This document shows positions 1 to 26,765 of a DNA stretch of 60,477 nucleotides, piece by piece. The position numbers and the translations under genes were made by a program. Numbering within the stretch: the first letter of the stretch is position 1; each line of letters begins with the position of its first letter. Below the pieces are notes generated by a model. It saw only the letters and a program-made list of their open reading frames with translations, made no database searches and had not been told where the DNA came from. The DNA comes from Candidatus Angelobacter sp. Gp1-AA117 (GTDB lineage Bacteria; Acidobacteriota; Terriglobia; Terriglobales; Acidobacteriaceae): NCBI GenBank assembly GCA_003223515.1, contig QHVI01000021.1, positions 1 through 60,477 of the forward strand. Reading direction: 5' to 3'.

Positions 1-1135
1 CGATTAGTCCAAGCAAGCAATCGCCCACCCGTATACGCTTCTGGCGAAGACCGAGACCCCAGTTGCTTGCCACTAAAATACACGCGAGCACCAACAGAGA
101 ATTGGCCAGACTTTGTCCATATCTGATGAGCACCCAGCCAAGTAAGTCGAAATAAACCAAATTGGATGCTTTCGAGTCCTCTGAGGTGGCGTTGCCAAAA
201 TGTCGGACCATTTCAAGAACATAATCCCCTTGATGCTGTAGGCTTCCCCGATCTGCATTTTCAACCGAATCCAATTTGGTGTGGTAGTAGGCAAGCCTAT
301 TAATGAATGCGAAATTCAAGCCTGCATAGCCTGCACGGTGAAAAATCGTAAAATCCGTATTATTCGGCAGCCGTTTGTAAATTTCGTAGGAAAGAGAATT
401 AGCAACCGGATGGGAAGCCGCTTGCGCAAAATTTCTGATCAGCCAGCCATTGTTATCACTGGTTTCAAACATGATAGAAGGCCCACTCGTCCCACGTGCC
501 TCGAAATTGAATACGAAACCAACGTCGCGTGCCCACGGATGTTCTTCCACAAAAGCCCGGGCTCCGAGCAGCCCCACCTCTTCACCATCGGTAAAAAGAA
601 AGATCACATCCCTCTTCAGTTGTGGTAGTGACTTGAGCGCCCGGGCAGTTTCCAGAAACGCGGCCACAGCTACACCATCGTCACTGGCTCCAGTTCCAGT
701 TGTAACAGAATCGTAATGCGCGACCAGAAGGACAGCCTTTTCATGGCTGCTTCCACTCAGACGGCAAACGATATTGTCCAGCGCGCCTTTTATACCTCTT
801 CTCTCAGTTATATCTGTAGTCCTCTGGATTTCGGGAGCAAGTCCAAGATCACGAAGTGCACGCACGATGTAGTCGCGAATCACATCGTGCTCTGGAGAAT
901 TGATTGGATGCGGCGCGCGTCCGATAACTGAGAGGTGCTTGGCAGCTCTTTCCGCTGAGAAAGTTGACGGGGGCGCTTGCTCCGGCAATGGTCTTGGCGG
1001 ATTATCAAGACCAATGGTAGCTAGGCCGAAAACAACAAAGAAGACCAACCAGATTCCGGATCGGGGTATCTTCGTAACATCAGCTTTTTCGATGCTCGAG
1101 GAGACTGTCTCTTTAAGGGATATTGCAATATGCAT
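1..1135 (-). CDS. Membrane-anchored M28-family zinc aminopeptidase (C-terminus off the window)
   Basis: The reading frame is open from the ATG at 1135 to the window edge, giving 378 visible residues with no stop, so the gene is 3'-truncated by the window. The M28 (Zn-dependent aminopeptidase) motifs are in order: HYDSV (zinc His), GASDDG (bridging Asp), TDGEEVGLLGA (catalytic and zinc Glu), FNFEARG, and YYHTKLDS (last zinc His). A hydrophobic segment at about residues 27-43 looks like a membrane anchor, and a second membrane segment begins after the catalytic domain (LLVLACILVA), as in ER-metallopeptidase-like M28 proteins. The active site would lie outside the cytoplasm. It is the last visible gene on the biosynthetic strand, 88 bp after the Rieske gene, so it could process or detoxify the product (inference), or be an unrelated neighbour. 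No clear Shine-Dalgarno precedes the chosen ATG. Confidence 0.82.
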   Translation of the reverse strand, partial: MHIAISLKETVSSSIEKADVTKIPRSGIWLVFFVVFGLATIGLDNPPRPLPEQAPPSTFSAERAAKHLSVIGRAPHPINSPEHDVIRDYIVRALRDLGLAPEIQRTTDITERRGIKGALDNIVCRLSGSSHEKAVLLVAHYDSVTTGTGASDDGVAVAAFLETARALKSLPQLKRDVIFLFTDGEEVGLLGARAFVEEHPWARDVGFVFNFEARGTSGPSIMFETSDNNGWLIRNFAQAASHPVANSLSYEIYKRLPNNTDFTIFHRAGYAGLNFAFINRLAYYHTKLDSVENADRGSLQHQGDYVLEMVRHFGNATSEDSKASNLVYFDLLGWVLIRYGQSLANSLLVLACILVASNWGLGLRQKRIRVGDCLLGLI

Positions 1136-1223
1136 ACTTTGGATTGTTGGAAAGAATTATAGGTCGGACTTATCTTTCGGCAAACTGACCGGGTGCCCAG
1201 CTTGTTTTGTAGTACCTCCGTTT

Positions 1224-1541
1224 TTACAAGGCTAGAAATATATCCTCTTCTATAACGGTCACCTTATAAATCGCGAGGCGGATACCTGCCTTCCGCGGAG
1301 TCTCGCCCGTCCTCAAATCAAATTGCCAGCCGTGCCAGGGACAGATGAGTTTGCCATCTTCAATTCTGCCTTGGCCCAAAGGACCACCCCAGTGGGGGCA
1401 AACATTGTCGGTTGCACAAATTTCTCCATTTACGTTCGCGATGCATATGAACCGGCCACCTGCCATGAATTCCTTCGCTCTTCCACATGCAGGTAGGCTG
1501 GACTTATTTGTTACTTTGACTAAAGTGCCTTCGGATTGCAT
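1224..1541 (-). CDS. Rieske [2Fe-2S] ferredoxin
   Basis: This 105-residue protein is essentially one Rieske domain. The cluster ligands are clear: CPHWGGPLGQG (Cys and His) and CPWHGWQF (Cys and His), with the usual spacing. The length fits the free-standing ferredoxin subunit of Rieske non-heme oxygenases and related electron carriers. It has no signal peptide or membrane segment, so it acts in the cytoplasm. It lies 65 bp downstream of the SbnA-like gene on the same strand. The only visible partner needing electrons is the diiron oxidase at 4178-4921, so a reductant role for that enzyme is a reasonable inference. No ferredoxin reductase is visible. Confidence 0.88.
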   Translation of the reverse strand: MQSEGTLVKVTNKSSLPACGRAKEFMAGGRFICIANVNGEICATDNVCPHWGGPLGQGRIEDGKLICPWHGWQFDLRTGETPRKAGIRLAIYKVTVIEEDIFLAL

Positions 1542-1606
1542 TTCGGTGCGCCATAGATGTCATAGTATTGAATTGTCTCTTAAGAGGGAACTTGCCATGT
1601 TGGCTT

Positions 1607-2668
1607 CTATCCTACAGAAACATTAGCTGACGAAAGAGCACTTCTCTCTGGACTGCTGCACTGCTTAACATCTATAACCCGGCCTGCTCGTAAACGTTCA
1701 GCCAGTTCACTGCGGCTTAATATTTTAATGCCGTGGTCAGCGAGCCACGGTCTGTTGTAAATCTGGTCAAGATAATTAGCTCCGCTGTCTGGTATGATCG
1801 CCAGCGCGCTTCGTATGGAGCTTTGTTTTAACCACGCCAACGAACCGAACACCACGAGCCCCGAAGATCCGCCGAACAATAAACCGTGCTCTTTCGCCAG
1901 CAAATGGCATATGGAAATAGCTTCCTCATCTGACAAAATGCAGAGTTTATCCAGAACCGAGAGATCGGTGTTTTTGCCACGCCAGCTTAGGCCTGATCCA
2001 CTTACGAGATATGGGTGAGACGCGCCGCCAAAAACCGCCGACCCGTCAACGTCACACGCTACAACTGTGGTTCCAGGCCGCTTCTCTTTGACCTTACGAC
2101 TTATGCCGCAGAGATGGCCACCTGTGCTCACGCTGCCCACCACAGCATCCACTTCTAATTCTGCGACCTCCTCTCCTGTCGTGGAATAGTGAAAATCCGG
2201 ATTATCTTCATTGTCATATTGGTTTGGCCAGATCGCCCCAGGATAATCCTCTAACAGTTCTTTTACACGGGCCACACGTGTCTTCTGGTATCCTCCGTTC
2301 TCGTCTGTGTCCTGCACCATTTCCAGTTTCGCGCCATATGCCTCGCACCATTTAATGACAGTAGGACTTGTCTTTGCATCAATTACGACAATCACATGAA
2401 AACCATATACGGCGCCAAGCATGGCGAGCGATTTGCCAAGGTTTCCAGACGTAGATTCGATTAGAGTGCCTCCTCTGCCTAACTTTCCCGCAGCAATTGC
2501 GGCTTTCACTAGCCCCAGCGCTGTGCGGTCTTTAATGCTGAAACTCGGATTGTAGTATTCCAGCTTTGCAAATAGTCGCTTGCCCTGAGGAATAAGGCTG
2601 TCGCGGAGTTCCACAATTGGAGTGTGCCCGATACAATCGGCAATGCTGCCATAGATCGCGGTGTTCAT
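1607..2668 (-). CDS. SbnA-like PLP-dependent amino-acid beta-substituting synthase (cysteine synthase fold)
   Basis: Fold-type II PLP enzyme of the cysteine synthase superfamily. The PLP lysine is in SFSIKDR (about residue 46), followed by the substrate loop STSGNLG, a phosphate-binding GSVSTGGH loop and PDSGANYLD near the end. The STSGNLG loop and the overall pattern recall SbnA, which joins O-phosphoserine and glutamate into N-(2-amino-2-carboxyethyl)-glutamate in staphyloferrin B synthesis, and AesA of the EDDS pathway. The SbnB dehydrogenase that normally follows is absent, so the product may be used directly. I chose the ATG at 2668, giving 353 residues and the family N-terminus (SIADCIGHTPIVEL); an in-frame TTG at 2695 is possible. 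It sits between the NAS-like and Rieske genes. The substrate is inferred, not shown. Confidence 0.8.
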   Translation of the reverse strand: MNTAIYGSIADCIGHTPIVELRDSLIPQGKRLFAKLEYYNPSFSIKDRTALGLVKAAIAAGKLGRGGTLIESTSGNLGKSLAMLGAVYGFHVIVVIDAKTSPTVIKWCEAYGAKLEMVQDTDENGGYQKTRVARVKELLEDYPGAIWPNQYDNEDNPDFHYSTTGEEVAELEVDAVVGSVSTGGHLCGISRKVKEKRPGTTVVACDVDGSAVFGGASHPYLVSGSGLSWRGKNTDLSVLDKLCILSDEEAISICHLLAKEHGLLFGGSSGLVVFGSLAWLKQSSIRSALAIIPDSGANYLDQIYNRPWLADHGIKILSRSELAERLRAGRVIDVKQCSSPERSALSSANVSVG

Positions 2669-2749
2669 ATCGTCTTGATCCAAAATGGTGAGCAATCGAC
2701 CGCGCTGATGACTTGGCCATCTGCTGTATCGGTCATTGCTGTTAACAGG

Positions 2750-4168
2750 TTAATAATTCAAGTTATTGGGCGGCTGGAAAACAGGAGTAGCCTCTGTTGC
2801 TTTGGCTCTGATTTCCTTTATGCGCTCTTTGAGTTCAGTGCAGGTTTGTGTCAGGTAAAGGCCTTGATATCTCTTCTCGCCCACACGCGAGTAGTCTTGA
2901 AGGAGCCCATATGGTTTGAAACCGAAGTGCTGCCACCAGATCGCAGCCATGGTGCCCGCTCGAACGTCTAGGCAAATCACTTCTCGTTCCAGTTCTTCAC
3001 ATTTCCTGGCAACTTCTTCAAAGGCATGAAAAGCAAGCCCTCCACCGCGGAAGGATGGATCAATTGTGCCTCGCGTCAGTTCTACGATGTGGTGGTGATT
3101 GGGCGTTGAATTCGGCGTTAAGATGAGTTGCCCTACAATCCGCCCTCCTTTTATTGCTACAAGCAAATGACGGCGGCGTTCTCCCACATCTGCCTGCAAC
3201 TGGCACATGAGGGCATTCCCTGTATCCTCATCCAATGGACCTGGAAACCCAATGGTTGTTTCTTCCTCCAGAGTACGATTCATTAAGCGCAGGATTTGAG
3301 TCGCTTGCTCCGGAGTGATTTCCTTGAGCCACTCCAGTCGGATATCGGTTGCCGCGCTTGTGGCTGCTTCTAAAAGTAAGGTGGAGATGGTTTGTTCACC
3401 CTCTGCTACCTGCTGTCCTTGAATATGAAATCCACGGAAGTCTCGGTCAGAGGTGGGTTCATAGACCAGGCGCCGAACTCCGAGAGATGTTCTGCAGAGG
3501 ATTAGGCATTCTGACCGCCGTTTTCGCAGGGTGCGCAGAATATGTCTCTTGGGCCCCCTTGGAAGATCGATAAGGATCAAGTCGTAATTTGAAGCCGCAT
3601 ACTCCGTATCACCGTCGCGGAACATCCTTACCGATCCGTCGAAGCCGCACTTCTTGAGTACCTGTCGTGCGATGCTTACGTCACCCGGATCGTAACCTAC
3701 ACAATCAACCGACATGTCACTCTGCAAGTGCACGTGAATGGCACTGCTAGGTAAGGGGCCGCTCCCCATGATCAGCATCCGCTGTGGCCGGGCACCCGAA
3801 ACCAAGGTTAATTCTCGCTTGACCAACTCGCTGGATCGTTTATGCAGAAAATAATCCTGGAGAGAAGTCTTCCCTTGCAGGAACGCAGCAGCAAATTCAT
3901 ATTCCAGGCGGCTTTGCCATGAATGATAGGCTTTATTCGAACTCGTAATCAGTTCTGGCGTTAAGGCTTGCAAAAAACTTCTGGCTCTGAATTCGTCTTG
4001 ATCAAGGCAAAAAATCAACTTCTCCAGTTGCAGAATATTTTCATGCAACATGGAGAAGTCAAGCTGGTTCACTGTAACTGCCTTGAAAGTCTCACAGACT
4101 CGCCTCAGCAGCTCGAGATCCAGCTCTTCTCGACTTTCTATGGACCAATTGACGGCCGCACTGCTCAT
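2750..4168 (-). CDS. Nicotianamine synthase-like domain fused to a GNAT acyltransferase
   Basis: A 472-residue two-domain protein. Residues about 40-270 resemble nicotianamine synthase/CntL: the hallmark GSGPLPSSAI at 135-144, an acidic residue in VGYD (160) where SAM binds in this fold, and a glutamate-bearing helix (RLEYEF, about 88-92) where NAS has its catalytic Glu. This family moves the aminobutyrate arm of SAM onto an amine. Residues about 275-460 form a GNAT domain, with the acetyl-CoA loop in PSFRGGGLA and the C-terminal FGFKPYG strand. I do not know a characterised protein with this fusion. An AGGAG sits 8 bases before the ATG, and the gap to the HDO gene is 9 bp, so it is in the operon. 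A joined transferase-acylase activity on one amino-acid product is inference. Confidence 0.82.
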   Translation of the reverse strand: MSSAAVNWSIESREELDLELLRRVCETFKAVTVNQLDFSMLHENILQLEKLIFCLDQDEFRARSFLQALTPELITSSNKAYHSWQSRLEYEFAAAFLQGKTSLQDYFLHKRSSELVKRELTLVSGARPQRMLIMGSGPLPSSAIHVHLQSDMSVDCVGYDPGDVSIARQVLKKCGFDGSVRMFRDGDTEYAASNYDLILIDLPRGPKRHILRTLRKRRSECLILCRTSLGVRRLVYEPTSDRDFRGFHIQGQQVAEGEQTISTLLLEAATSAATDIRLEWLKEITPEQATQILRLMNRTLEEETTIGFPGPLDEDTGNALMCQLQADVGERRRHLLVAIKGGRIVGQLILTPNSTPNHHHIVELTRGTIDPSFRGGGLAFHAFEEVARKCEELEREVICLDVRAGTMAAIWWQHFGFKPYGLLQDYSRVGEKRYQGLYLTQTCTELKERIKEIRAKATEATPVFQPPNNLNY

Positions 4169-4177
4169 GCTTAACTC

Positions 4178-4921
4178 CTATGCCTGTGCGCCGATGGTGG
4201 CTGCTTCGCTCAGGCTGCGGCCCTCTGCTTCATAGGCATCCTGAATTCCATCAAAGAAGCGCCAAAAGCGGTCGCAGGTACCTTCAATAGCTTCGATAGC
4301 TTCGTTCTGCATCTTTTCCGTGGTGCAAAGTTCTGACACCAGATCCAGGCCGTCAGCCACGTGATATACATCTTCAACCGCGTGCACTGCGAAAAATGCC
4401 AAATCCTCGGGCTTCAATCCGTACAACTCCGGAATCAGCTGTTCCTTCGTCTTACCCGCCTTGCTTTCCAGACTCTGCCCTTCTGAAGCAATCATCACCG
4501 CTGCCGCCCCCATGTGAAGCGTCGCTGGATCTGCGCAAAGTTTTCGCCTGTATTCGATCAGATCCATCGTAGTCGGCAAGGGAACCTCGTTTTCAATCTG
4601 TTCTTTTGTCAGCCCCAGGGCCAGGATGAATCGCTCCATCAAATCCATGTGGTTGGCCGTCTTTGAGAGAGTGCCTGTCTCCTCTTCATACAAATTAACC
4701 GCCAGGGCTACTCGGGATTTCTGAATGGGGCACCGCGAATAGATCATTCCCAGATACCAGGTGAAGTTCCGGGTCAGGTGGAAGCCTTGAAGTGCTATTT
4801 TGCCGATGAGGGGAAGGTTCTTCTTCGGTTTGGCCATCTCCAGTAAAACAGGATGATCCAGAGTGAGTCTTTTGTGCAAAGTTTCTTCCAGCTTCATCCG
4901 AAATTCGTTCTTGCTGAGCAT
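4178..4921 (-). CDS. Heme-oxygenase-like diiron oxidase (HDO superfamily)
   Basis: An all-helical 247-residue protein with the ligand pattern of the HDO superfamily (SznF, CADD, UndA, BesC). Counting from the chosen start there is an E-rich helix (EEETG, 79-83), H91 in ANHMD, E147 in IASEGQ, and the triad H180-x3-D184-x2-H187 in VHAVEDVYH, the same H-x3-D-x2-H spacing as SznF and CADD. Such enzymes perform O2-dependent N-oxygenation, C-C cleavage or desaturation of amino or fatty acids. The start is set at 4921 because GGAGGA lies just upstream of it; an in-frame ATG at 4933 would place that ribosome site inside the gene. It is 9 bp before the NAS-GNAT gene. Reaction and substrate are unknown. 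Confidence 0.82.
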   Translation of the reverse strand: MLSKNEFRMKLEETLHKRLTLDHPVLLEMAKPKKNLPLIGKIALQGFHLTRNFTWYLGMIYSRCPIQKSRVALAVNLYEEETGTLSKTANHMDLMERFILALGLTKEQIENEVPLPTTMDLIEYRRKLCADPATLHMGAAAVMIASEGQSLESKAGKTKEQLIPELYGLKPEDLAFFAVHAVEDVYHVADGLDLVSELCTTEKMQNEAIEAIEGTCDRFWRFFDGIQDAYEAEGRSLSEAATIGAQA

Positions 4922-5133
4922 TAATTCCTCCATTGTTTATTTTGTGTTTGAATTTGAGCCGCCAGATTCTTGTAGTGGCATACAGATAGGCGCGCACATT
5001 AAGTATGACTGATGCTAGTAGCTGAAAAGTTAAGGTGTTCTGAGGGCCTGCTTGAATCGATTTTTCAAGAACAGCCCCAGGGAGCTATTGATCAGAACAA
5101 CTCAAGAGGAAACAAAGGCAACGATGAATCCAG

Positions 5134-6102
5134 TTATTGCATATCTAAAGCAATGGCGTATTGGGTCGCGGGTGCGCCCACGCCGATTTCCAAAAGACGC
5201 TCCACATTTTGGTGAAGAACCAGGGATTGCTCCTTATCACTCAGTTCTGCCAGCGCGCCGTTTTCAGACATCAATGGCATGAGGAAGTCCTTCTGCTCGC
5301 CTTGTAGCCGGAATACCGGGAAATCAGTTCCGAACAGCACCTTGTGATTAATTCCCAGGGAAACGATCTTCTTCACTGCCGTAGCTGTCGGATCATAGCC
5401 GAGCGTCGACTGGTATCCACTGATATCCAAATAGATGTTGGGCCTGAATCTGCACAACATGACGCACTCTTCGACAAAACTGACGGCGCCGTGCGCCAGA
5501 ATGAAATTCACTGATGGGAACCGGCGGGCCGCTTCGTCAATCAGGAACGGACTGGAAACTGTGAAATCCAGCACTGGTGCGGTTGGGCCGATATGGACTA
5601 GGACGGGGAGTTGATGGTGTGCGCACAGTTCGTAAAACGGGAACAGCGCGGGATCACTGGGGCTGAAGCCACAAGGTGGATAGACCTTGAAGCCACGAAA
5701 TCCAAACTCCACCAGCGAACGCTCGAACAACGCCAGCCCGTCCTTTCCCCAGCGTGGATCGACTCCTCCAAAGACTTCGAACTTTCCTGGATGCCGAAGC
5801 AGCACTTCCCGATGTCTGGCGAAAGACTCCTCGATTGTCAGGATGCAGTCCTTCAAGGCATAAGTGAAATCCGCTATCAACAGAACACTCTTGCTGATTC
5901 CGGCTTCCCCCATTTCGGTTACCAGGGCATCGCCAAAGGGATCTCGCATCTTGCTCTGGAAAATTGTCATGAGCTTTTTGACGGAAACCGGGAGTCCCTG
6001 GGCAGACAGAGCCGCCACCATATTCTTCACTGATCCCTCAAGAAACGATCTCGGAGTATGCTCCTCGGAAGCAATATGACAATGGCAGTCAATAATTTTC
6101 AT
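5134..6102 (-). CDS. ACMSD-like amidohydrolase (amidohydrolase_2, TIM barrel)
   Basis: A 322-residue metal-dependent hydrolase or decarboxylase of the amidohydrolase_2 group. The metal motif is at the very N-terminus (IIDCHCHI, HxH at residues 7 and 9), with later ligands in LVHIG, LAHG and the catalytic Asp of FGTDFP. Length and order match ACMSD/gamma-resorcylate decarboxylase-like proteins, which act on amino-carboxylates or aromatic acids. No signal peptide. It follows the ACP gene by 29 bp and leaves about 210 bp before the HDO gene, in which I see no gene. Whether it decarboxylates or hydrolyses an intermediate cannot be told from sequence. Confidence 0.85.
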   Translation of the reverse strand: MKIIDCHCHIASEEHTPRSFLEGSVKNMVAALSAQGLPVSVKKLMTIFQSKMRDPFGDALVTEMGEAGISKSVLLIADFTYALKDCILTIEESFARHREVLLRHPGKFEVFGGVDPRWGKDGLALFERSLVEFGFRGFKVYPPCGFSPSDPALFPFYELCAHHQLPVLVHIGPTAPVLDFTVSSPFLIDEAARRFPSVNFILAHGAVSFVEECVMLCRFRPNIYLDISGYQSTLGYDPTATAVKKIVSLGINHKVLFGTDFPVFRLQGEQKDFLMPLMSENGALAELSDKEQSLVLHQNVERLLEIGVGAPATQYAIALDMQ

Positions 6103-6131
6103 ATTTTTGCCTGCTGCTTCCGTCTTTGTCT

Positions 6132-6419
6132 TCAGGCTTGCTTGGCAAGAAGCGCTTTGTTCAGGATGTCGCGGGCTGCCTGGATGACGTCACTGACGGT
6201 TTTCAGCTTCGCAACATTGATATCTACACCCAACTGTGCGATATCGATACTGAACAATTCTTCAAAACGAAATACCATCGCTAGTATCCCGATCGAATCC
6301 AGTCCTAGTTCCTTCTGCAGGTGGGTTTCTGGTGTAATCTTCGTTTTCTTGAACCTGCCGGAGACGCCCTGCGAAACTATGTTAATGATCTTTTCGTCAA
6401 GTTCCGCAGCAATCTCCAT
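6132..6419 (-). CDS. Acyl carrier protein
   Basis: A 95-residue carrier protein. The phosphopantetheine attachment serine is in LGLDSIGIL (Ser42 from the ATG), the expected place in helix II, and the rest is helical and acidic as in stand-alone ACPs. The start overlaps the stop of the upstream ligase gene (TGATG), and a GTG at 6422 is an alternative. This coupling means the ligase is the likely loader of this carrier, giving an acyl- or aminoacyl-S-ACP on which the later enzymes could work. No phosphopantetheinyl transferase is visible in the window. Confidence 0.9.
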   Translation of the reverse strand: MEIAAELDEKIINIVSQGVSGRFKKTKITPETHLQKELGLDSIGILAMVFRFEELFSIDIAQLGVDINVAKLKTVSDVIQAARDILNKALLAKQA

Positions 6420-8026
6420 CACGCACCCCTGGCCAGCACTTCTTTGGTCTCTCGACTCTCCTTCAGGAAGTGCTCAGCGATTTTCCTGCGATCAAGTTTC
6501 AGGTTAGGCCGCAAAAACCCGTTTTCACGGGAAAATGCTGCATCAGTGAAAATGATTCTGCCTACTAGGATGGAAGGCTGTCGCTCGCCGATGCTGTCCA
6601 CAAACCGTTGGATCCGAAGCTTCGCGGATTGATCCTGTGGGCTTTTGGGTACGACGACTGCTACCAGAGTCGAGGCATCCGGATCTGCAAAAACGACTGA
6701 CCTTGCCACATCGGAAGAAGCGTTGATCGCTGATTCAGGAATTTCCGGATGGATCTTTGTTCCACCCGCAGTAACAATCATCTCTCGTTTCCGGCCGATC
6801 AGGTAAAGATAACCATCTTTATCAAACCGGCCCACGTCACCCGTCGCCACGCGATCGTGGTTGATGAATGTTTCTTCTGCCTCTCCTTCAACACAATCGA
6901 AATAAGTAGATGCAAGCCGGTGTTCGCGAATGGCGATGACCTCGCCATCAGCAGCCAACTCGACTCGAACCCCAGGGAGCAACCGCCCCACGGAACCAAC
7001 TCTCTTTGCTCCAGGAACATTGAGTGCAATACCACCGAACTCGATCATGCCGTACGTCTCGAACAGCGGCAGTTGCATGAGTTCAAAGAGATCCAGGGTT
7101 GATCGCTTGATGGGGGCCATGCCTGTCACCATGAAGCGCATCTTGCCACCCAGTGCTTCATATGCGTCCTCGAAGATGATTTGGGCGAGCTTCTCGCGCA
7201 ATCGTTTTGATGGAACCTTACCCGCCATTGTGCCCATGATTCTTGCGGCCCTTTGTTTCCACCGCGGCAGATTACAGAATCGCGTCTCAAAAGTTTCATA
7301 CAGCATAGGTGGCGCAATAAGAACCGTGGGATGAAGGTCCTTCAATGCGCGAAAGAGCCGGTTGGGATCCGTAACAATGAGGTCAACACCGTACCATAGT
7401 GCTGAATAGTACATGAGCCGTTGCTGAAAGTTTGAGATCGGCAGGAAGAGGAGAAGGCAATCGTCAGCGCGTGGAGCAGCCGCTTTTGTGAACGCATCGA
7501 CACTGGCCTCGATCCCCTGCCGATTCAGCGTAAGCCCCTTCAGCCGGCCAGATGAGCCGGAAGAAAAGATCAGTCCTGTATTTTCAAACTCCGGATCTGA
7601 GTTTGACTGTTGGCGATCAATGGCTTTGATGTTTTTATTTTTCCCATCGAGAAAAGCGACAGCATCTGACTGCCTCGTGTTCTTGTAGGTCTGGTTCGTG
7701 GACTGTACCAGCAGGAGTGACAACGAATACCTGTCGATCAGTTCGTCTGCGCCCATCTTTGCAAAATCGTCGGTAAAAGCTACCGAGAGTGCTCGTAACT
7801 CAAGCAAGGCCAAGTCATAGATGATCCATTCATAGCAGTTACAGGAAAAAATCCCAACCCGCATCCCTGTCTGCACTCCCCAGGCCCTTAATCTCGCAAC
7901 GGCTGCCATTACATCTTGAAACACGTTCTCATGGCTTCTTTTTACTACCTGTCCCTTTTCGAACGTAAGGATGAAGTTCTGATGCTTTTGCTCGGAGATG
8001 TGGGAGGTTAATGCTCTTAGATCCAT
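6419..8026 (-). CDS. AMP-forming acyl/aminoacyl ligase (ANL superfamily)
   Basis: A 535-residue adenylate-forming enzyme with the full set of motifs: the P-loop-like SSGSSGRLKG, ETYGMIEFGG, TGDVGRFD and GRKREMIVTAGGTKIHPE, and a C-terminal lid that ends in an RPNLKLDR-like segment. It resembles long-chain acyl-CoA synthetases and free-standing ligases more than NRPS A domains. It would activate an acid with ATP and pass it to the adjacent ACP; its stop overlaps the ACP start. The ATG at 8026 follows AAGGTG; a TTG one codon upstream is less likely. An MbtH-like protein is encoded two genes upstream, which is unusual for a ligase that is not part of an NRPS. The substrate cannot be predicted by eye. 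Confidence 0.9.
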   Translation of the reverse strand: MDLRALTSHISEQKHQNFILTFEKGQVVKRSHENVFQDVMAAVARLRAWGVQTGMRVGIFSCNCYEWIIYDLALLELRALSVAFTDDFAKMGADELIDRYSLSLLLVQSTNQTYKNTRQSDAVAFLDGKNKNIKAIDRQQSNSDPEFENTGLIFSSGSSGRLKGLTLNRQGIEASVDAFTKAAAPRADDCLLLFLPISNFQQRLMYYSALWYGVDLIVTDPNRLFRALKDLHPTVLIAPPMLYETFETRFCNLPRWKQRAARIMGTMAGKVPSKRLREKLAQIIFEDAYEALGGKMRFMVTGMAPIKRSTLDLFELMQLPLFETYGMIEFGGIALNVPGAKRVGSVGRLLPGVRVELAADGEVIAIREHRLASTYFDCVEGEAEETFINHDRVATGDVGRFDKDGYLYLIGRKREMIVTAGGTKIHPEIPESAINASSDVARSVVFADPDASTLVAVVVPKSPQDQSAKLRIQRFVDSIGERQPSILVGRIIFTDAAFSRENGFLRPNLKLDRRKIAEHFLKESRETKEVLARGA

Positions 8027-8093
8027 CAAAGCACCTTATGTATTAATGCGATCAGCTGGGAAAAAATCACGCGGGATGTCGAAGGCGTATTCA

Positions 8094-10034
8094 TTATGCC
8101 TGCGCCATCGCCTCTTGCGCCCGTAGCGCTACGGGCAGTTCCTCCGGATCCGCGAAGAACTTCCTGAGCAAATCGGCAACAAAATCCGCGCGATCATAGA
8201 GGCAGTAATGGGTGGCGCCTTTCACGAATATATACCTGGCATTCGGGAAGCGCCCAGCCGCAATTTCCGAACTGGCCGGGGCTGCAACCTGATCGTATTC
8301 TGCTGCCATCAGTAGCACTGGAATCTGGACTTCACTGGCTTTGCCTCGCGAATCATGTGACCAGAAGTCAACAAGCTGATGAGCGTAATTGGCTGTCGTC
8401 GCCTCCGTCTTAAACGGCGCCACAACGTATGACCTCAGATTGATGTTCATCAGAGATAGCACGCTAACGCTCAGATCTTCAGTTGCTGGCCCATTTAAAA
8501 ATTCCAATTCGTCCTGCTCCGGCGGTGACTGCAGGTTCTTCATGACTGAGGCAGCCATTACAGGCTTGCGGACTAGCATCCGGCAGAGGGACTCCATATT
8601 CCGCTCGTAGGGACTGTCCAACTCTTCCGGGCTGCCATCACATTTAAACGTGCTGTTCAGAAACGCCATGGAAGTAACCACCGATGGTCGCCGCAGATAG
8701 AAATCAATGGCAACTTTCGCGCCAGTGCACCAGCCTACGAGATGACATTTCTCCACCACTTCTTGTTGCAATATGGCATCCAGGTCGTTTACCTGGTCCG
8801 CCAGTCCAAACGGTGGCGGCGGAGAGGCTGTCCCCCTAGGCTCCCAGGTAATCACCGTGTAGTTTTCTGCCAATTCATCGATTAGCCGGTGCCAGCATTC
8901 CATTTTCTGTCCCAGTGCATTTAGTAAAACAACCGACTGGGCGCCACTGCCGCCGACGTAATAGTTAAGTTCAGTTCCGTTTATGCTTATTGTTTTCTCT
9001 CTGAGTCTTGCAGGTAAATTTGCAACCCTCCTTTTCCGTGCTTTGGCAGCGTCATCCTGGCTTCGCCGGATTGACTCAAAGATCGCAATCTGGGTGTCTT
9101 CGTCCAGCTGTGCGCTGTCTGCCTGAAAATAGCCGGGCGGCGGCGCTGTTCCCGGAAGAAAACCGAAACCACCTTCTGTCCGTTCATGAAACACGCGGTC
9201 TATGGCGTTGAGAGCGCCAAAATCCCTGACGGGAAGAAGACCAAGGCCATAAGCAACACCAATGCGCTCACATAAAGACCAGACCGGCGTATCTTGTGGA
9301 TTGACCGCTGAAAAGCTGGAATTGATAGTCCCATTTGTATGGGCAACGCGCAACAGGGACTCCGATGCCTGTGCTGCTGTAATTAGGTTTACGGCTGCTC
9401 CCTCTTGAACAAGGCACCGCAGTGCGTGGAAGTCAAAATACTGTGGACACCGCTCTTCAATTTCCTGCTTGAATGAATGCAGTACCAATAGGAATCGTGA
9501 GAAGCGGGAAGCTGCCTGCCTTGACTGCACATTGCCTGGCAGCAACGGCGTGCGGAAAATCCGATAACCAACGTCGTGGCTCATGCACCACTGCGAAATT
9601 AGATAATCACTAACCTCCTCTTTTGCTTGAACTGTGCCGCAGTTTTCCTCTTCGAATCTGACGTAATTGAATTCCTTAGCTCCCCTGGCGGCACAGGCTG
9701 AGATCAATCCTTCAATTTCTATGCTGTCCCCACCGCTCATACCATCTGCGCAATACCACACTTCGTCAATCGTCTTGCTGATCTGCCCATCCTGATGAAT
9801 ATCAAGATCCTGATCTAACCACAGTAGGCGGTTAGTTAGCTCCTCTGGCCTCAAAGCCTTAATTTCTCCGGACTGGCAGGCTGCCTGGCACACCAACTCG
9901 CATATTTGCTTTTCCGGCAACTTCTCGCTTATCCCAAAACGATAAAAGATCCGGTCGTCCGTCGTGCGCAGGCAATGGCCCGCCAGATGGCTTCCCAGCA
10001 GGGATTCTATGCCGCAGATCAAAATATGGCGCAT
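8094..10034 (-). CDS. Fusion of degenerate SDR-like domain and alpha/beta hydrolase with Cys nucleophile
   Basis: A 646-residue fusion. Residues 1 to about 325 begin like an extended SDR or thioester-reductase C-terminal domain (MRHILICGIESLLGSHL), but the glycine-rich NAD motif is eroded. Residues about 345-630 form an alpha/beta hydrolase: the nucleophile elbow is GWCTG with Cys436 in place of the usual Ser, the acid is probably Asp581 (AAEYDQV) and the His is His609 (GATHYC). Cys in this elbow is known from some thioesterases that make beta-lactones or beta-lactams, and from transacylases. It lies 67 bp upstream of the ligase, so it may offload or transfer the ACP-bound acyl group (inference). 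The N-terminal domain could be a degenerate or non-catalytic scaffold. Confidence 0.78.
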   Translation of the reverse strand: MRHILICGIESLLGSHLAGHCLRTTDDRIFYRFGISEKLPEKQICELVCQAACQSGEIKALRPEELTNRLLWLDQDLDIHQDGQISKTIDEVWYCADGMSGGDSIEIEGLISACAARGAKEFNYVRFEEENCGTVQAKEEVSDYLISQWCMSHDVGYRIFRTPLLPGNVQSRQAASRFSRFLLVLHSFKQEIEERCPQYFDFHALRCLVQEGAAVNLITAAQASESLLRVAHTNGTINSSFSAVNPQDTPVWSLCERIGVAYGLGLLPVRDFGALNAIDRVFHERTEGGFGFLPGTAPPPGYFQADSAQLDEDTQIAIFESIRRSQDDAAKARKRRVANLPARLREKTISINGTELNYYVGGSGAQSVVLLNALGQKMECWHRLIDELAENYTVITWEPRGTASPPPPFGLADQVNDLDAILQQEVVEKCHLVGWCTGAKVAIDFYLRRPSVVTSMAFLNSTFKCDGSPEELDSPYERNMESLCRMLVRKPVMAASVMKNLQSPPEQDELEFLNGPATEDLSVSVLSLMNINLRSYVVAPFKTEATTANYAHQLVDFWSHDSRGKASEVQIPVLLMAAEYDQVAAPASSEIAAGRFPNARYIFVKGATHYCLYDRADFVADLLRKFFADPEELPVALRAQEAMAQA

Positions 10035-10113
10035 GGTTGCTGGAGTAAAAAGCTGCGTTTATAACACGATCGCAAATGCGTCTACCTGAAAGAAACCAAC
10101 CTTTGTGAGTCGA

Positions 10114-10725
10114 TTAAGCAACGGTTGCCTGTTGGCTCTCGACCTTTACCAATTGTCCTGTTCCCTGCAATGTGCTCAAATCGATGTCCGCGACACATTT
10201 AACCGTCACGTAGTCAAGAACCAGATTGCCTTCGAGGTGGGCGGTACCCTTCCCATTCTCAAAATCCGCTGACTTGAAATCTGAGCTGTTCTGGTCCAGG
10301 TGAAATCCAAGTTCCGTCCCGCCTTTCGTCTTCGTAAATTTAATGTGAACGTAGTTGCTATCCACCGCCTTTTTGAATCGGGCAACCGTCTTCTCGGTCC
10401 GAAGTCCCACTTCGACCTCATGTTTTCCTTCGCATAACCGGTCCACCAGACTCTTCTCGTGCTTTACTTCGGAAGTGGGAGCAGCGGGCGGCGCAGGTGG
10501 ATTATGCTCCATTGCCTCCATCTTCTTCCTTAGACTAAGCGGCCTCATGTCTGTCCAGACTTCCTTAATGTAAGCCAGGCACTCCGCTTTCGGACCAGCC
10601 TTTCCTGCATCCTTCCACCCAGCAGGATTTTCCTTATAATCCGGCCATATCGAATATTGCTCTTCATGATTCATCACAACTTTGTACGTTGTAGTATCTT
10701 CCCGATCAGGATCGTTCAAACCCAT
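10114..10725 (-). CDS. MbtH-like protein with ~130-residue C-terminal extension
   Basis: Residues about 12-70 are a clear MbtH domain: N19-x2-E22-Q-Y-S-I-W27-P, then NPAGW37, a CLAYI segment and VW57TDMRPLSLR, so the three hallmark tryptophans are present. MbtH proteins are normally about 70 residues and bind adenylation domains of NRPSs. Here a Pro/Ala linker (about 75-86) leads to a further 115 residues, rich in predicted strands ([19 protein letters not shown]), which I do not recognise. No NRPS is visible, so the partner may be the ligase at 6419-8026 or an enzyme elsewhere. AAGGAG precedes the ATG by 8 bases. The gene follows the antiterminator by 210 bp, which includes a GGAGGC-C-GCCTCC palindrome at 10866-10878. 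Confidence 0.85.
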
Positions 10726-10935
10726 GGTTGCATCTCCTTTGATAAATTTTCACAGACTCCAAACTACTTTCGACCATTGATTGCATGCTGCAGATTGCGT
10801 AGCGCTGTGAGCGGAACCAGTTTTGCGTTAGCGCTGTGATTTGTACAATACCGTGGGCAGTCCGGGGAGGCCGCCTCCTGTCATGCGCAACGACCAGTGG
10901 CGGCACTGCTACATACATAATCGTCTCCAGGATCA

Positions 10936-11454
10936 TTATCCTGCCGCAGCTTGAACCAGAGTCACTTCTGATCCATCGATCTCTACCGAGATCGATTTCA
11001 TGATCACGTCTAATGAAATTACCAGCCGATCGCGTTTTTTGAATTGCGTAATGATTCCACTGATACCTGTGAGTGGCCCCGAGATGACCTGGACTTTCTG
11101 TCCCGCTCTAAAATATGGAACGGCGCTATATTCCCGTTTGCCACGCACGATCTGCTGAAGAGCTTCAATTTCCCGGTCCGGAACCGGCTGCGGTCTCCCG
11201 CCAAAGCTCACCATACGTACTATTCCGGGAGAGTCCCGTATAACTTCCATTAAATTCCTTTGACTCTTACAAAACACATAGCCGGGGAAGAGCGGTTCCT
11301 CGACTACCCTGACCCGATCCGACCATCTTCGACGCACGCGGCAAGTCGGCAGGAAATGTTTGTAACCCCGATATTCAAGGGTTTTATCGACGCTTTTTTC
11401 GTGTCTGGGTAGCACTTGAAGGGCAAACCAGGAACCCGTATCACTGAAAAGCAT
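10936..11454 (-). CDS. NusG-family specialised transcription antiterminator (UpxY/LoaP-like)
   Basis: A 172-residue NusG paralog with an N-terminal NGN domain (SWFALQVLPRHEKSV at the start, EEPLFPGYVFCK in the middle) and a C-terminal KOW domain (AGQKVQVISGPLTGISG). NusG paralogs such as UpxY, LoaP and RfaH ride on RNA polymerase to let it read through terminators in long polysaccharide or natural-product operons. Here the gene stands first in an 11-kb co-directional block of biosynthetic genes, the typical position for an operon-specific antiterminator. An AGGAG site lies 6 bases before the ATG. Its target would be a hairpin in the leader RNA; one candidate is at 11623-11642. Confidence 0.9.
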   Translation of the reverse strand: MLFSDTGSWFALQVLPRHEKSVDKTLEYRGYKHFLPTCRVRRRWSDRVRVVEEPLFPGYVFCKSQRNLMEVIRDSPGIVRMVSFGGRPQPVPDREIEALQQIVRGKREYSAVPYFRAGQKVQVISGPLTGISGIITQFKKRDRLVISLDVIMKSISVEIDGSEVTLVQAAAG

Positions 11455-11801: not shown

Positions 11802-12452
11802 TTATGCAGTCATTTCTTTAACGGGAGGTTCGGATTGGGAAGTTTTGATTGCTTGCAGGCTTCTGCGATTCTTAACATTGAATTTTTGCAAAACGTTGGC
11901 AACATGAAATTTCACGGTTCTGGGCGAAATCCCTAACACCTGACCAATTTCTTTATTCGACAAACCTTCTAGTAAGCAGGCTATGATCTGCTGTTCCCGG
12001 CTTGTAAGTTTTGACGCCGGACCTGCCAATCCGTGTCTTTGCACAATGTACTCTGTCAAAGTATTGCGGCGAATCCACAATTGCCCGGCAATTACCGCTT
12101 CAACTGCCGGCGCGAGCTCATTTTCCACATTTGCAATCGGCACAACCCCGCGCACACCGAGATGCAATATCCTGACTTCTTCTTCCTGAGTACTCGGCGT
12201 GTCCGTGAGGAGAATGACTGGCTGTTTTTTCATCACTCCATATCGCAAGGCCATCTCAAGCCATCTTTCTACAGAGTGTATATCAATAATTAAAATACAC
12301 TTATATTCCGCAAGCCCCTCGATTTGCGCCACAGAAAATGGATACACAAGGCGGCAGCTAGGTGCCAGTATTTTTTCGAGCATCCGATATACCAAAGGAT
12401 GATGGCACAGTATGTGAATCGGCAGGTCGAAATTGATCGTTGGCTGTCTCAT
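11802..12452 (-). CDS. LuxR/NarL-type transcriptional regulator with degenerate receiver-like domain
   Basis: About 216 residues from the ATG at 12452 (a GTG at 12506 is the longer alternative). The C-terminus is a clear LuxR HTH: LTSREQQIIACLLEGLSNKEIG followed by ISPRTVKFHVANVLQKF. The N-terminal part has the length and strand-helix rhythm of a receiver domain and keeps one Asp (LIIDIHS), but the usual acidic pocket and lysine context are weak, so phosphorylation is doubtful. It lies directly upstream of the biosynthetic cluster on the same strand and divergent from the padR gene. It could control the cluster, but nothing in the sequence proves it. Confidence 0.85.
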   Translation of the reverse strand: MRQPTINFDLPIHILCHHPLVYRMLEKILAPSCRLVYPFSVAQIEGLAEYKCILIIDIHSVERWLEMALRYGVMKKQPVILLTDTPSTQEEEVRILHLGVRGVVPIANVENELAPAVEAVIAGQLWIRRNTLTEYIVQRHGLAGPASKLTSREQQIIACLLEGLSNKEIGQVLGISPRTVKFHVANVLQKFNVKNRRSLQAIKTSQSEPPVKEMTA

Positions 12453-12553
12453 GCGGCCTCGAGGATCATCGCGGTAGAGCACGCCGCACCCGTCTACTCG
12501 AGCCACTATACTCCATAATCAAACAAAATAAGTTAGTTTTTTGACATAGCGGT

Positions 12554-12624
12554 GGGAACCTCAAAAACACTGACCTGTTGGTTTCCAAAATGAAGATGTG
12601 GTATGCTCTCGCCTGCCGGTTCCC
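12554..12624 (+). promoter_or_regulatory. Candidate padR promoter with three GGGAACC/GGTTTCC-type half-sites
   Basis: TTGGTT (12578-12583) and TATGCT (12602-12607) with 18-bp spacing could be the padR promoter. GGGAACC (12554-12560), GGTTTCC (12580-12586) and GGTTCCC (12618-12624) are related half-sites in inverted or direct arrangement around it, fitting autoregulation by a dimeric PadR protein. Assigned by eye only. Confidence 0.3.
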
Positions 12625-12627
12625 AAG

Positions 12628-12975
12628 ATGAAAAAAAAGACTGATGTTCAGCAAGGTACGGTAGCGTTGATGGTGCTCAAAACGCTGGATGTGATCGGCT
12701 TACTGCACGGGTATGGCATCGCTCGCAGGATTGAGCAGATTAGCGGTGACTTGTTGGCTGTCAACCAGGGGACGTTGTATCCAGTACTGCTGAAATTGGA
12801 ACAGGAAGGTGCGATTGCTTCCGAATGGGGCGCGTCAGAGAACAACCGTCGCGCTCGTTTCTATCGAATGACCCGCGAGGGTCAAAAGCGGCTTGAAGCC
12901 GAGACGCGAGAGTGGCAGAAGACCGCCGATATCATAGCTCGCTTCTTCGCCATCCAGGCAGAGGACTTGAAATGA
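12628..12975 (+). CDS. PadR-family transcriptional regulator (acidobacterial type)
   Basis: A 115-residue winged-helix repressor. The PadR pattern is clear: HGYGIARRIEQISG, the recognition region NQGTLYPVLLKLEQEG, and the wing ending ARFYRMTREGQKRLEAE, followed by a short C-terminal helix. I start at the ATG at 12628, since the GTG at 12598 would begin upstream of the likely -10 box. Its stop overlaps the start of the permease gene (ATGA). In Acidobacteria this regulator type regularly accompanies large orphan FtsX/MacB-like permeases and is presumed to control them. Confidence 0.92.
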   Translation: MKKKTDVQQGTVALMVLKTLDVIGLLHGYGIARRIEQISGDLLAVNQGTLYPVLLKLEQEGAIASEWGASENNRRARFYRMTREGQKRLEAETREWQKTADIIARFFAIQAEDLK

Positions 12976-15671
12976 TGCGTTTGCGCGAACTCTTCCAGCG
13001 CGTCGTCAATACGCTCACCCGGCGAAGGCAGGATGAACGCTTTCGCTCAGAAATCACAGAGCACATGGTGCTCCAGACGGAAGACAACATCCGCTCAGGA
13101 ATGCCGCCCGATGAAGCACGACGTCAGGCAATGCTCAAGTTCGGAGCCGTGGAAGGAATCACAGAAGCGTATCGCGACCAGCAGAGCATTCCCTCCGCCG
13201 AAACCATCCTCCGCGATGCTCGCTACAGTTTCCGTGTTTTGCGGAAGACTCCTGCGTTTACCGGCGTTGCCGTGGTAATTCTGACACTCGGTATTGGTGC
13301 GTCTACAGCCATATTTTCCGTTGCCTACGCGCTGCTGCTACGGCCTCTGCCCTATCGCGATTCCTCCGCTCTGGTTGCAGTCAGCATGGAGACTCCAACC
13401 TTCAAGTCGGCCGCCGGCTTTGGCGTTGCTCTTCCGGACGTGGCCTTCTGGAGAGAACGCAATCACCTCTTTCAATCGGTTGCGGCGTACGGACTCGCTG
13501 ACATGACGATTACACGATCCCACGAAACCGCGCGGGTTCGAGTTGCCTCGGTTACGGCCAACTTCCTGCAGACTTTAGGTCTGGAGCCGCGTCTGGGAAG
13601 GGACTTCAACATCGGTGACGACGGGAATAATCCCGCCATGACGGTGCTGATCACGGATGCGCTCTGGCGGGAGCGCTTCAACGCTGATCCCGAAGCCGTT
13701 GGCAGCCTCGCCAATCTTGAGGGTCGCGCTTACACGATTATTGGAGTTCTCCCTCGGGATTTCCAGTTTCCGGAACCCATTGATTCACCCCAGGTGCTCA
13801 TGCCCATAGCCGGTGGGAACGAATCAAGTTTCGCCACTGGTGGATACCGGATCGTCAAGGTACTCGGACGGATGCGCACCAGCGCAAGTCTTGCGCAAAC
13901 ACAAGCCGAATTGAGTGCAGTACAGCAAAACCGCAGCCACGACTACCCAATGATGTACCGCAGCATGTTTAAGGGCGCGACTTTTCCCGTCGAACCTCTC
14001 GCTCAACGGCTTACCGGCGGTGCTCGGATCCCGGTATTGGTTCTCCTTTGCGCGGTTACACTGGTGCTGCTGATTGCGTGTGCGAATGTCGCCAATCTGC
14101 AACTTGTGCGCGCCAGCACCCGCCGCCATGAACTTACGTTGCGGGCCGCGCTCGGGGGTAGCCGGTCCGGGCTCGCGCGCCAGTTGTTGACCGAGTGCCT
14201 TGTTCTATGCGGCCTCGCATCGGTTCCGGCGTTTCTCGTTGCTGATCAGGCTGTGCGCGTGATTCGCGCCACCAAACTTGCTTCGATGCCGTGGCTGGCC
14301 AGCGTCAGCGTCAACCCGATCGTGCTTGCCTTCATGGTCGCTATCACGGTGCTGTCTGCGGTTGCGTTTGGCATCGCTCCCGCAATCAGCGGATCGAAAA
14401 CCAATCTGCTCGATACACTTCGCGCAGCGCCACTGAACATGTCCGGAGGACGCGGGCACCGCACTCTACAACAGGCCCTTGTTGCAGGACAAGTCGCGAT
14501 CGCACTCCTCCTGGTTATCTGCGCGGGCCTGCTGGTCCGGAGCTTTCGCAAGCTTATCGATGTGAATCCCGGCTACGATCCTGCTGGCGTGTTGACGATG
14601 CAAACTGTGCTTCCTACTTACCGCATCGCCGATTCCGGGCGGCCAGCATGGATGTCCGGCAAGAGCCAGGAACTGCTTGCGCGCCTGAAGGCGCTGCCTG
14701 AGGTTCGATATGCGGCCCTCAGCACCTCGATTCCATTGCAGCGGTATAGAGTTAACGGTGCCATCCGCACACTCGACATGCCGCCCGACCCTACCGGGAC
14801 TTTATCTCCAACCTCGCCGCAGATTGGCATTTCCCCTGATTACTTTCACGCCATGGGAACACCGCTGCTCGCGGGTCGTGGTTTTTCGGATGCCGATAAT
14901 GAAAACAGCCCGGCGGTCGCGATCGTCAACGAAAGGTTTGCAATACAGTTTCTCCGAGGCGCGGCCTTAGGCAAGCACTTTCAAGCAGGTATGGCCTTGT
15001 ATTGTGCTGGTTGCAGCCGCGGCTCACAATCCGATATTGAGGTGGTTGGGGTGGTTGCGGACATGCGGCATGAAGGCAACGATCAACCAGCCCAGCCGGA
15101 ATGGTTCGTGCCCTATCACCAGGCTCCGCTCGGCAATTTCACCATCGTAGTGTCTACTGCGAAGGACGCTGCTACGTTGTCCACCCCGGTGCGCGCGGTG
15201 GTACACGAAGTCGAGAGCGAGGCTCCGCTATTTGAAGTTGGGACGATGCAGCGACTGCTCGATGAATCGCTCGCGAGACGTCGCCTGACGATGTTTCTGC
15301 TCTCCAGTTTTGCCGGCTTGGCGCTGCTCCTGGCAGCGGTCGGAGTTTATGGCGTGATTGCCTACGCGGTGCTGCAGCGTAGGCAGGAAATTGGCATCCG
15401 TATCGCGCTTGGCGCCACACCCGGCGGGATTGTGCGGCTCGTATTAACCGAACACCTCAAGGTGCTGGCCATTGGAACCATTGCTGGAGTCACACTGGCA
15501 GCCGCATCTACGAGGCTGATGGCGAATCTGCTGTTCGGCATCAGGTCGGGTGATATAGCAACCTTTGCAGTCGCCTGCGGCGTGATTGCGGTCGCTGCAT
15601 TCGTCGCGTGCATGATTCCCGCATGGCAGGCGGCGGCGGTTGATCCGCTGATTGCGCTGCGATACGAGTAA
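12972..15671 (+). CDS. Large FtsX/MacB-type ABC permease (acidobacterial duplicated orphan permease, ADOP)
   Basis: An 899-residue membrane protein. After a soluble start (about 1-80) come a membrane helix (about 85-115, VVILTLGIGASTAIFSV), a MacB-type periplasmic domain, an FtsX block (VLLCAVTLVLLIACANVANLQLVRA), a second membrane/periplasmic/FtsX unit (VAIALLLVICAGLLVRS) and a final FtsX block ending in PAWQAAAVDPLIALRYE. This duplicated architecture without an adjacent ATPase is the ADOP family. No ABC ATPase is encoded nearby, so its partner and cargo are unknown. The ATG at 12972 overlaps the padR stop, supporting this start rather than the longer frame upstream. Confidence 0.93.
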   Translation: MMRLRELFQRVVNTLTRRRQDERFRSEITEHMVLQTEDNIRSGMPPDEARRQAMLKFGAVEGITEAYRDQQSIPSAETILRDARYSFRVLRKTPAFTGVAVVILTLGIGASTAIFSVAYALLLRPLPYRDSSALVAVSMETPTFKSAAGFGVALPDVAFWRERNHLFQSVAAYGLADMTITRSHETARVRVASVTANFLQTLGLEPRLGRDFNIGDDGNNPAMTVLITDALWRERFNADPEAVGSLANLEGRAYTIIGVLPRDFQFPEPIDSPQVLMPIAGGNESSFATGGYRIVKVLGRMRTSASLAQTQAELSAVQQNRSHDYPMMYRSMFKGATFPVEPLAQRLTGGARIPVLVLLCAVTLVLLIACANVANLQLVRASTRRHELTLRAALGGSRSGLARQLLTECLVLCGLASVPAFLVADQAVRVIRATKLASMPWLASVSVNPIVLAFMVAITVLSAVAFGIAPAISGSKTNLLDTLRAAPLNMSGGRGHRTLQQALVAGQVAIALLLVICAGLLVRSFRKLIDVNPGYDPAGVLTMQTVLPTYRIADSGRPAWMSGKSQELLARLKALPEVRYAALSTSIPLQRYRVNGAIRTLDMPPDPTGTLSPTSPQIGISPDYFHAMGTPLLAGRGFSDADNENSPAVAIVNERFAIQFLRGAALGKHFQAGMALYCAGCSRGSQSDIEVVGVVADMRHEGNDQPAQPEWFVPYHQAPLGNFTIVVSTAKDAATLSTPVRAVVHEVESEAPLFEVGTMQRLLDESLARRRLTMFLLSSFAGLALLLAAVGVYGVIAYAVLQRRQEIGIRIALGATPGGIVRLVLTEHLKVLAIGTIAGVTLAAASTRLMANLLFGIRSGDIATFAVACGVIAVAAFVACMIPAWQAAAVDPLIALRYE

Positions 15672-26268: not shown

Positions 26269-26285
26269 TTTCCGGAGAACAAGAA

Positions 26286-26765
26286 ATGGAATTCTGTCGT
26301 ATCGCCCCTGACGTAAAGCTTGGCAGCAACGTGACCTATCACGCATTCATCAACCTCTACGGCTGCTCGGTTGGAGACAACAGCCGTATCGGGACCTTTG
26401 TCGAAATCCAGAAAAATGCCCGCATAGGCAGAAACGTGAAGGTCTCCAGTCACACGTTCATCTGTGAAGGCGTAGTAATCGAAGACGATGTCTTCATCGG
26501 GCACAATGTCTCGTTCATCAACGATAAATATCCCCGCGCTACTGACGGCAATGGCAAACCGCAGTCAGAGGCGAACTGGGCGGTTGTCCCCACGCTGGTG
26601 AAACGGGGCGCTTCCATTGGCACCAGCGCCACCATCCTATGTGGAGTCACCATTGGCGAGAACGCCATTGTGGGAGCAGGCAGCGTGGTAACGCATGACG
26701 TTCCTGATGGAGCAATTGTGGCCGGCAATCCGGCACGGACGATTCGAAAGGCGGTGGCAGTATGA
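26286..26765 (+). CDS. Left-handed beta-helix N-acetyltransferase (WbpD/WlbB-like)
   Basis: 159 residues made of hexapeptide repeats (LGSNVT, IGTFVE, IGRNVK, IGENAI and others) and ending [12 protein letters not shown], the LbH acyltransferase pattern. Length and place between the dehydrogenase and aminotransferase genes fit WbpD, which acetylates the C3 amine. GGAG lies before the ATG; its stop overlaps the next start (ATGA), so translation is coupled. Confidence 0.88.

Follow-up and report, generated by a model that had tools for sequence, protein, structure and literature searches.

The window analysed here is a 60,477-nucleotide stretch that makes up an entire contig (QHVI01000021.1, hereafter C108) of the 6.48-Mb, 206-contig genome of Candidatus Angelobacter sp. 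Gp1-AA117, and our subject is an eleven-gene operon at one end of it, which an earlier note had described as a biosynthetic cluster of unusual composition without a nonribosomal peptide synthetase (NRPS) or polyketide synthase (PKS). We think it probable that this region is the 5' part of an NRPS cluster, holding regulators, an MbtH protein and the enzymes for a building block, that the cluster is cut at the contig end and continues on a second contig (C89) with an NRPS starting with a fatty acyl-AMP ligase (FAAL), and that an amino acid is built and tailored on a free carrier protein. The NRPS reading rests on the complementary pieces of a split M28 peptidase gene, on the NRPS genes behind the 3' piece, and on the NRPS context of several paralogues.

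The eleven genes and their listed domains were confirmed with Pfam and NCBIfam. All lie on the - strand with intergenic gaps of -4 to 210 bp, catalytic motifs are present in the genes checked, and the unusual composition claimed for the cluster is borne out. The eleventh gene encodes an M28 peptidase (2..1135, - strand; 173.7 bits), of which the first 378 residues are present, and the operon leaves the contig at base 1, inside this gene. Because the M28 gene runs past base 1, the far side of the operon is unreadable from the window, and because the operon is cut by the contig end, the window alone cannot support the statement that there is no NRPS or PKS. The visible operon encodes no NRPS by Pfam scan; the contig end most likely explains this apparent lack, and the NRPS genes that lie behind the M28 3' piece on C89 contradict the statement, short of a physical join.

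The split M28 gene and its probable NRPS context

The M28 fragment in the window shares 69% identity over 336 residues with a complete, 592-residue M28 protein encoded elsewhere in this genome, on contig C180. We used the last 199 residues of this paralogue as the query for a search of the genome. Besides recovering C180, it matched C89 at bases 46-561 (43%) and a portion of an M28 gene on C159 (32%), three places in all. On C89 the 3' frame is open to the first base of the contig (the piece spans G000:C89:1-579) and starts GGAEAASW; the equivalent in the C180 protein, GGAVMT, lies three residues past the point where the window stops. Measured against the paralogue, the window and C89 pieces together lack approximately 3-10 residues, ten being the gapless reading back.

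Behind the M28 piece, C89 encodes a 2097-residue NRPS with the domain order FAAL, acyl carrier protein (ACP), condensation (C), adenylation (A) and peptidyl carrier protein (PCP), in which the A domain carries an inserted TIGR04020 luciferase-like monooxygenase (508 bits against a cut-off of 244). A second NRPS gene (C-A) runs off the far end of the contig. The codon usage of the C89 NRPS genes correlates with that of the operon at 0.961, which by a narrow margin is the best value among five such comparisons made for the operon. The A-domain codes, read by eye as DILQLGMIW and DLFNNALTY and perhaps specifying Gly and Ala, were not used as evidence. Given the complementary M28 pieces, C108 and C89 are very likely adjacent in the genome; we infer this rather than demonstrate it, because no overlap of the contig ends was found. 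A contig edge can thus make an NRPS cluster appear to be free of NRPS genes, and a split flanking gene can reveal the missing contig.

The genome holds 84 condensation-domain matches over cut-off on 18 contigs (counted by hand), and several paralogues of the operon's genes stand beside NRPS genes. On C180 a NusG gene is followed by the complete M28 gene and then by a C-A-PCP gene, with an open reading frame (ORF) or gap between; on C55 the order is NusG, one ORF, a full-length copy (54%) of the window's MbtH fusion, one ORF, and an NRPS of 3225 residues. Copies of the amidohydrolase (42%) and of the Cys-hydrolase fusion (28.5-29.4%) accompany MbtH and NRPS genes on C40 and on contig C68 of another genome (G003:C68). 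A NusG-MbtH pair on C122 sits at a contig end. Part of the M28 loci of the genus was fetched. Around the NusG-M28 pair of G003:C68 no NRPS was seen in the surrounding 18 kb; on this contig NRPS genes extend to base 78,000 or beyond, the interval 78,001-82,000 lies outside what was read, and the start of NusG is near 90,100. The parts of PMC9723581 on which we draw describe Ca. Angelobacter as an NRPS-rich acidobacterial genus with MacB pumps, none of whose clusters was linked to known ones.

The 5' end of the operon is regulatory. The first gene (10936..11454, - strand) encodes a NusG-like processive antiterminator of the UpxY family (NF033644, 123 bits against a cut-off of 100); it did not qualify as LoaP, for which the model gave 80.9 bits, under its cut-off of 125. 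Upstream lies a co-directional LuxR-type gene additional to the eleven (11802..12506, - strand; GerE, 71.8 bits), probably the cluster's regulator, and a LuxR-type gene precedes the NusG-like gene in G001:C315 too. The second gene (10114..10725, - strand) encodes an MbtH protein (80.4 bits) with a C-terminal domain that matches CBF_beta (33.7 bits against a cut-off of 25). The fusion of MbtH to this domain, which resembles eukaryotic CBF_beta, recurs at L072:13147-13746 and at L073:6236-6634, the latter below the cut-off that the window copy exceeds. The domain stands alone in G001:C315; there and on C55, as judged by eye, what comes next is an ORF of ankyrin type and a gene for an NRPS.

The putative building-block enzymes

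An unusual protein of the operon (2750..4168, - strand) joins a nicotianamine-synthase (NAS)-like domain (residues ~59-261) to a GNAT domain (~280-450). A profile built from two sequences matched the nicotianamine synthase MtNAS (3fpe) with an E-value of 8.6e-25 and CntL with 1.6e-5, and a Foldseek search with a two-sequence AlphaFold model, usable only over residues ~13-238 (pLDDT is under 50 for residues 249-472), ranked MtNAS first and CntL second. The catalytic Glu of MtNAS (E81) aligns with E89, which is kept in both NAS-GNAT sequences, and MtNAS Tyr107 (a hand-counted number) aligns with Ser113. The NAS fold, the GSGPLP motif and the catalytic Glu place the domain in the nicotianamine synthase family, with the corresponding activity predicted; by the Pfam NAS model the assignment is marginal (27.4 against a cut-off of 27.1). 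The GNAT domain matched 1ghe with an E-value of 1.8e-6.

The searches brought up a single relative of this fusion. It occurs in two of 61 genomes, the genome under study included: one of eight other genomes of the genus has a near-full-length relative, and the remaining 52 related genomes searched yielded none. In the former, a metagenome-assembled genome (MAG) labelled Acidobacteriaceae, a 3.9-kb contig keeps the order amidohydrolase, HDO (heme-oxygenase-like diiron oxidase), NAS-GNAT and SbnA-like enzyme, with identities of 74% (over part of the amidohydrolase), 86%, ~60% and 69%, respectively. Within a sample of the phylum, 14 of 396 genomes gave a NAS-GNAT match, near full length in our genome only; the other 13 matches lie over the GNAT half (12) or over residues 122-212 (one). 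The Pfam NAS model matched three of the 396 at E <= 0.001, one of them, our own, over cut-off. A scan of genome contigs returned one contig, that of the MAG already found, and its reach was short because only two peptide patterns were used. Three Paraburkholderia matches cover the GNAT domain alone, and in the two loci inspected the gene adjoins ectB, isochorismatase and hyp genes; on two Paraburkholderia plasmids (L020, L021) an isochorismatase-HypE-HypF trio adjoins the GNAT gene, and the same trio is found in an NRPS region of Streptomyces NBC_01361 together with a Cys-hydrolase relative (L132). A search of the open-licence literature found no published NAS-GNAT fusion, nor anything of use on EDDS.

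The next gene (1607..2695, - strand) encodes a pyridoxal phosphate (PLP) enzyme of the PALP family whose best solved relatives are SbnA and then CmnB. The PLP lysine (K55) and the NQY and VST motifs are in place, and the score for the SbnA equivalog model lies below its cut-off (TIGR03945, 301 against 350 bits). The NAS-like and SbnA-like labels given in the earlier note therefore both hold, by profile, by Foldseek and by nearest solved relatives.

The HDO (4178..4933, - strand; Haem_oxygenas_2, 87.8 bits) has E85 (or E84), H95, E151, H184, D188 and H191 as proposed metal ligands. By sequence, the solved structures closest to it are those of 4-aminobenzoate synthases, and in those of the CADD type the self-sacrificed residue is Tyr27; here Leu30 aligns with that Tyr and TIGR04305 scores 90.6 against a cut-off of 200, and the CADD-type identity was rejected. 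The phylum sample holds an HDO match in 39 of the 396 genomes, ours included, the best in another genome having an E-value of 5.8e-23 and 28% identity. The AlphaFold model was too poor for use (pLDDT 45). The spacing of E85, H95 and E151 (10, 56) is the same as that of the ligands listed for SznF in the part of PMC11705231 used here, and no function was assigned from it because the spacing varies among other HDOs. A Rieske-type ferredoxin is encoded at 1224..1541 (- strand; Rieske, 58.9 bits).

The remaining four genes would serve in the handling of a carrier-bound unit. The adenylating (AMP) ligase (6419..8029, - strand) gave 227 bits to a Nonomuraea ligase and 194 bits to a Sinorhizobium ligase whose gene occupies the azsP position in its cluster. 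Its scores were lower against the ligases of C40 (64 bits) and G003 (70 bits) and against an NRPS A domain (29 bits), and the C89 FAAL gave no match. The window, Nonomuraea and Sinorhizobium ligases score 184-227 bits among themselves, and the window ligase scores <=70 to the other four enzymes of the panel; the three form an AzsP/Tri29-type group of predicted carrier ligases, AzsP and Tri29 themselves being outside the comparison. The free-standing ACP (6132..6422, - strand; PP-binding, 24.6 bits against a cut-off of 20.8) has DS at residues 42-43. An enzyme of the Amidohydro_2 family (5134..6102, - strand; 133.6 bits) is 51% identical to a Nonomuraea protein; of the 170 plasmid records that matched, this was the best, with the next listed at ~28%. 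Finally, an alpha/beta hydrolase with a Cys nucleophile (8094..10034, - strand; GWCTG at 434) follows an N-terminal region that gave no Pfam match and is SDR-like by eye. The Cys is kept in all four aligned acidobacterial copies, and of 18 matching plasmid records three, from Sinorhizobium and Streptomyces, were inspected, each with a relative (34-40%) inside an NRPS cluster. A conjugative plasmid of S. meliloti, pSmeSM11b (L131), has genes whose annotated products follow the order azsL-M-N-O-P-Q-S-T and also carries an MbtH gene, a Cys-hydrolase relative and two further NRPS genes.

Beyond the LuxR-type gene, divergent genes at 12598-15671 encode a PadR regulator and a MacB/FtsX-type permease; the latter (12912..15671, + strand; MacB_PCD/FtsX by family-model scan) adjoins the cluster, and its membership is uncertain. 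Sugar and polysaccharide genes occupy 25195-30736 and 47707-51878 (Gfo/Idh, two DegT aminotransferases, hexapeptide transferases, an epimerase, a polysaccharide deacetylase and glycosyltransferases), and an RHS-repeat protein of 1658 residues is encoded at 53736-58712, at the far contig end. An Rfam search of the window found nothing.

A proposed pathway and its alternatives

In azaserine biosynthesis, as described in the part of PMC10445470 on which we rely, the GNAT enzyme AzsS N-succinylates hydrazinoacetate, the ligase AzsP loads the product onto the carrier protein AzsQ, and the hydrolase AzsT removes the succinyl group, after which oxidation and NRPS condensation follow. Given that the window's GNAT domain, AzsP-like ligase, ACP, amidohydrolase, and HDO with Rieske ferredoxin parallel this scheme, we propose a pathway in which the amino acid is held on a carrier and its skeleton comes from the SbnA-like and NAS-like reactions. 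With the order of steps taken by analogy with azaserine, the SbnA-like enzyme would join an amine to a serine-derived aminoacrylate, and the NAS-like domain would transfer a 3-amino-3-carboxypropyl group from S-adenosylmethionine (SAM). The GNAT domain would N-acylate the product, the acyl serving as a protecting group, and the AzsP-like ligase would load the N-acylated unit onto the ACP. The amidohydrolase would then take the acyl group off, oxidation of the unit on its carrier would fall to the HDO and Rieske ferredoxin, its transfer or release to the Cys-hydrolase fusion, and the NRPS modules would condense it with an acyl chain and further residues.

Several observations weigh against the NRPS reading and the azaserine parallel. 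For the 130 bp at this edge of the window, the sole full-length match was the segment itself, the GC content of C89 (0.544) is higher than that of the operon (0.505), and C89 could instead continue a different M28 gene whose 5' half was not assembled. No NRPS accompanies the C159 M28 gene over the 15 kb retrieved, and a third copy of the Cys-hydrolase in this genome (C157, 40%) had none among the ORFs listed, which cover 3.9 kb of a 7-kb contig. Among the putative cassette proteins, the window and C40 ACPs are barely alike (E 0.009), the GNAT domain gave no match to the GNATs of Sinorhizobium and C40, the HDO matched its Sinorhizobium counterpart weakly (E 0.005), and the amidohydrolase and AzsT, a C45 peptidase, belong to different families.

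An NRPS-made metallophore, for which the SbnA-like and NAS-like enzymes would supply amino-carboxylate donors to a lipopeptide, is the strongest of the alternatives and is in our judgment unlikely. The nearest relatives of the two enzymes (MtNAS and CntL, and SbnA) speak for it, and since no SbnB match in the genome is over cut-off (the best has 102 against 327 bits), the pathway could use the amino-carboxylate as such; against this, Pfam scans of 44 window ORFs named no receptor or siderophore transporter, nor was one named among the ORFs of C89, whose far end is open, and according to the sections of PMC9723581 used here the clusters of Ca. Angelobacter have no adjacent siderophore markers.

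It is improbable that the pathway is free of NRPS enzymes, yielding an amino-carboxylate or acyl-amino acid, with C89 not adjacent. The C108-C89 join lacks a physical link and the visible operon encodes no NRPS, as this proposal would have it, but the complementary M28 pieces, the NRPS genes behind the second piece, the MbtH gene in the operon and the NRPS context of the paralogues all argue the other way. That the NAS-like domain is an azetidine-2-carboxylate (AZE) synthase feeding the NRPS, with the GNAT domain for self-protection, is very improbable, given that the AZE-synthase motifs FY, PFNxxGN and RxxYYxxC quoted from the part of PMC11794875 used here are all missing from both NAS domains and that the nearest folds are MtNAS and CntL, even though the same source has some AZE-synthase loci carrying NRPS, N-acetyltransferase and alpha/beta hydrolase genes.

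Returning to the probable NRPS cluster cut at the contig end, we tentatively suggest that it represents an NRPS pathway with nicotianamine-synthase chemistry, in which the fused NAS-GNAT would make and N-protect an aminocarboxypropyl amino acid that, following carrier loading, deprotection and oxidation by the HDO, would become part of a lipopeptide, where it could be a metal-binding or reactive unit of a new kind. If this is true, it would be a new protect-load-deprotect-oxidise route with a SAM-derived aminocarboxypropyl source in natural-product chemistry, and the cluster offers a defined set of enzymes for assay.

Comparison with known systems

The Nonomuraea gerenzanensis locus (L130) shares the ligase-ACP-amidohydrolase order with the window (ligase 31% and amidohydrolase 51% identical). 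It differs, as read by eye and with no family-model scan, in having an Fe/2OG-oxygenase-like gene in the place of the HDO, and no NRPS was seen there.

The C40 cluster has MbtH, amidohydrolase, ACP, Cys-hydrolase fusion, GNAT and NRPS genes in common with the window and its presumed continuation, the two GNATs not matching one another, but C40 differs in its Lys/Orn monooxygenase, MetRS-like and DAO genes and in having another ligase. Neither a NAS nor an HDO match fell on C40 in the searches of this genome, and no SbnA-like enzyme was found among the C40 proteins scanned. A set of genes like that of C40 is described for hydrazinoacetate pathways in the parts of PMC11705231 and PMC10445470 consulted; the gene set of the C40 cluster (L110/L118), in which we also noted isoleucine-dioxygenase/WelO5-like genes (below cut-offs) and fatty-acid-desaturase genes, suggests an acidobacterial product of the hydrazine type. 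The hydrazinoacetate genes present on C40 (lysine N-monooxygenase, MetRS-like, DAO) are absent from the operon and from the C89 ORFs.

With the azaserine and triacsin cassettes (AzsS-P-Q-T and Tri31-29-30, as far as the sources used describe them) the window shares a GNAT, a ligase, a free carrier protein and a hydrolase, the azs cluster having an HDO gene and NRPS genes as well, and the window ligase groups with that in the azsP position of the Sinorhizobium cluster. The window differs in that its hydrolase is of another family and its GNAT is fused to a NAS-like domain.

The SbnA-like enzyme resembles its best solved relatives, SbnA and CmnB, in its PLP lysine and its NQY and VST motifs, and differs in scoring below the SbnA model cut-off, in a genome without an SbnB over cut-off. 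Similarly, the NAS-like domain shares its fold, the GSGPLP motif and the catalytic Glu with nicotianamine synthase and with CntL of staphylopine biosynthesis, and differs in having Ser113 at the position of MtNAS Tyr107, in being fused to a GNAT domain, and in residing, probably, in an NRPS cluster. The unusual parts of the system are this NAS-GNAT fusion, the AzsP-like ligase with its ACP and amidohydrolase, the HDO and the SbnA-like enzyme; the fusion and the proposed carrier-bound logic are those that merit experiment.

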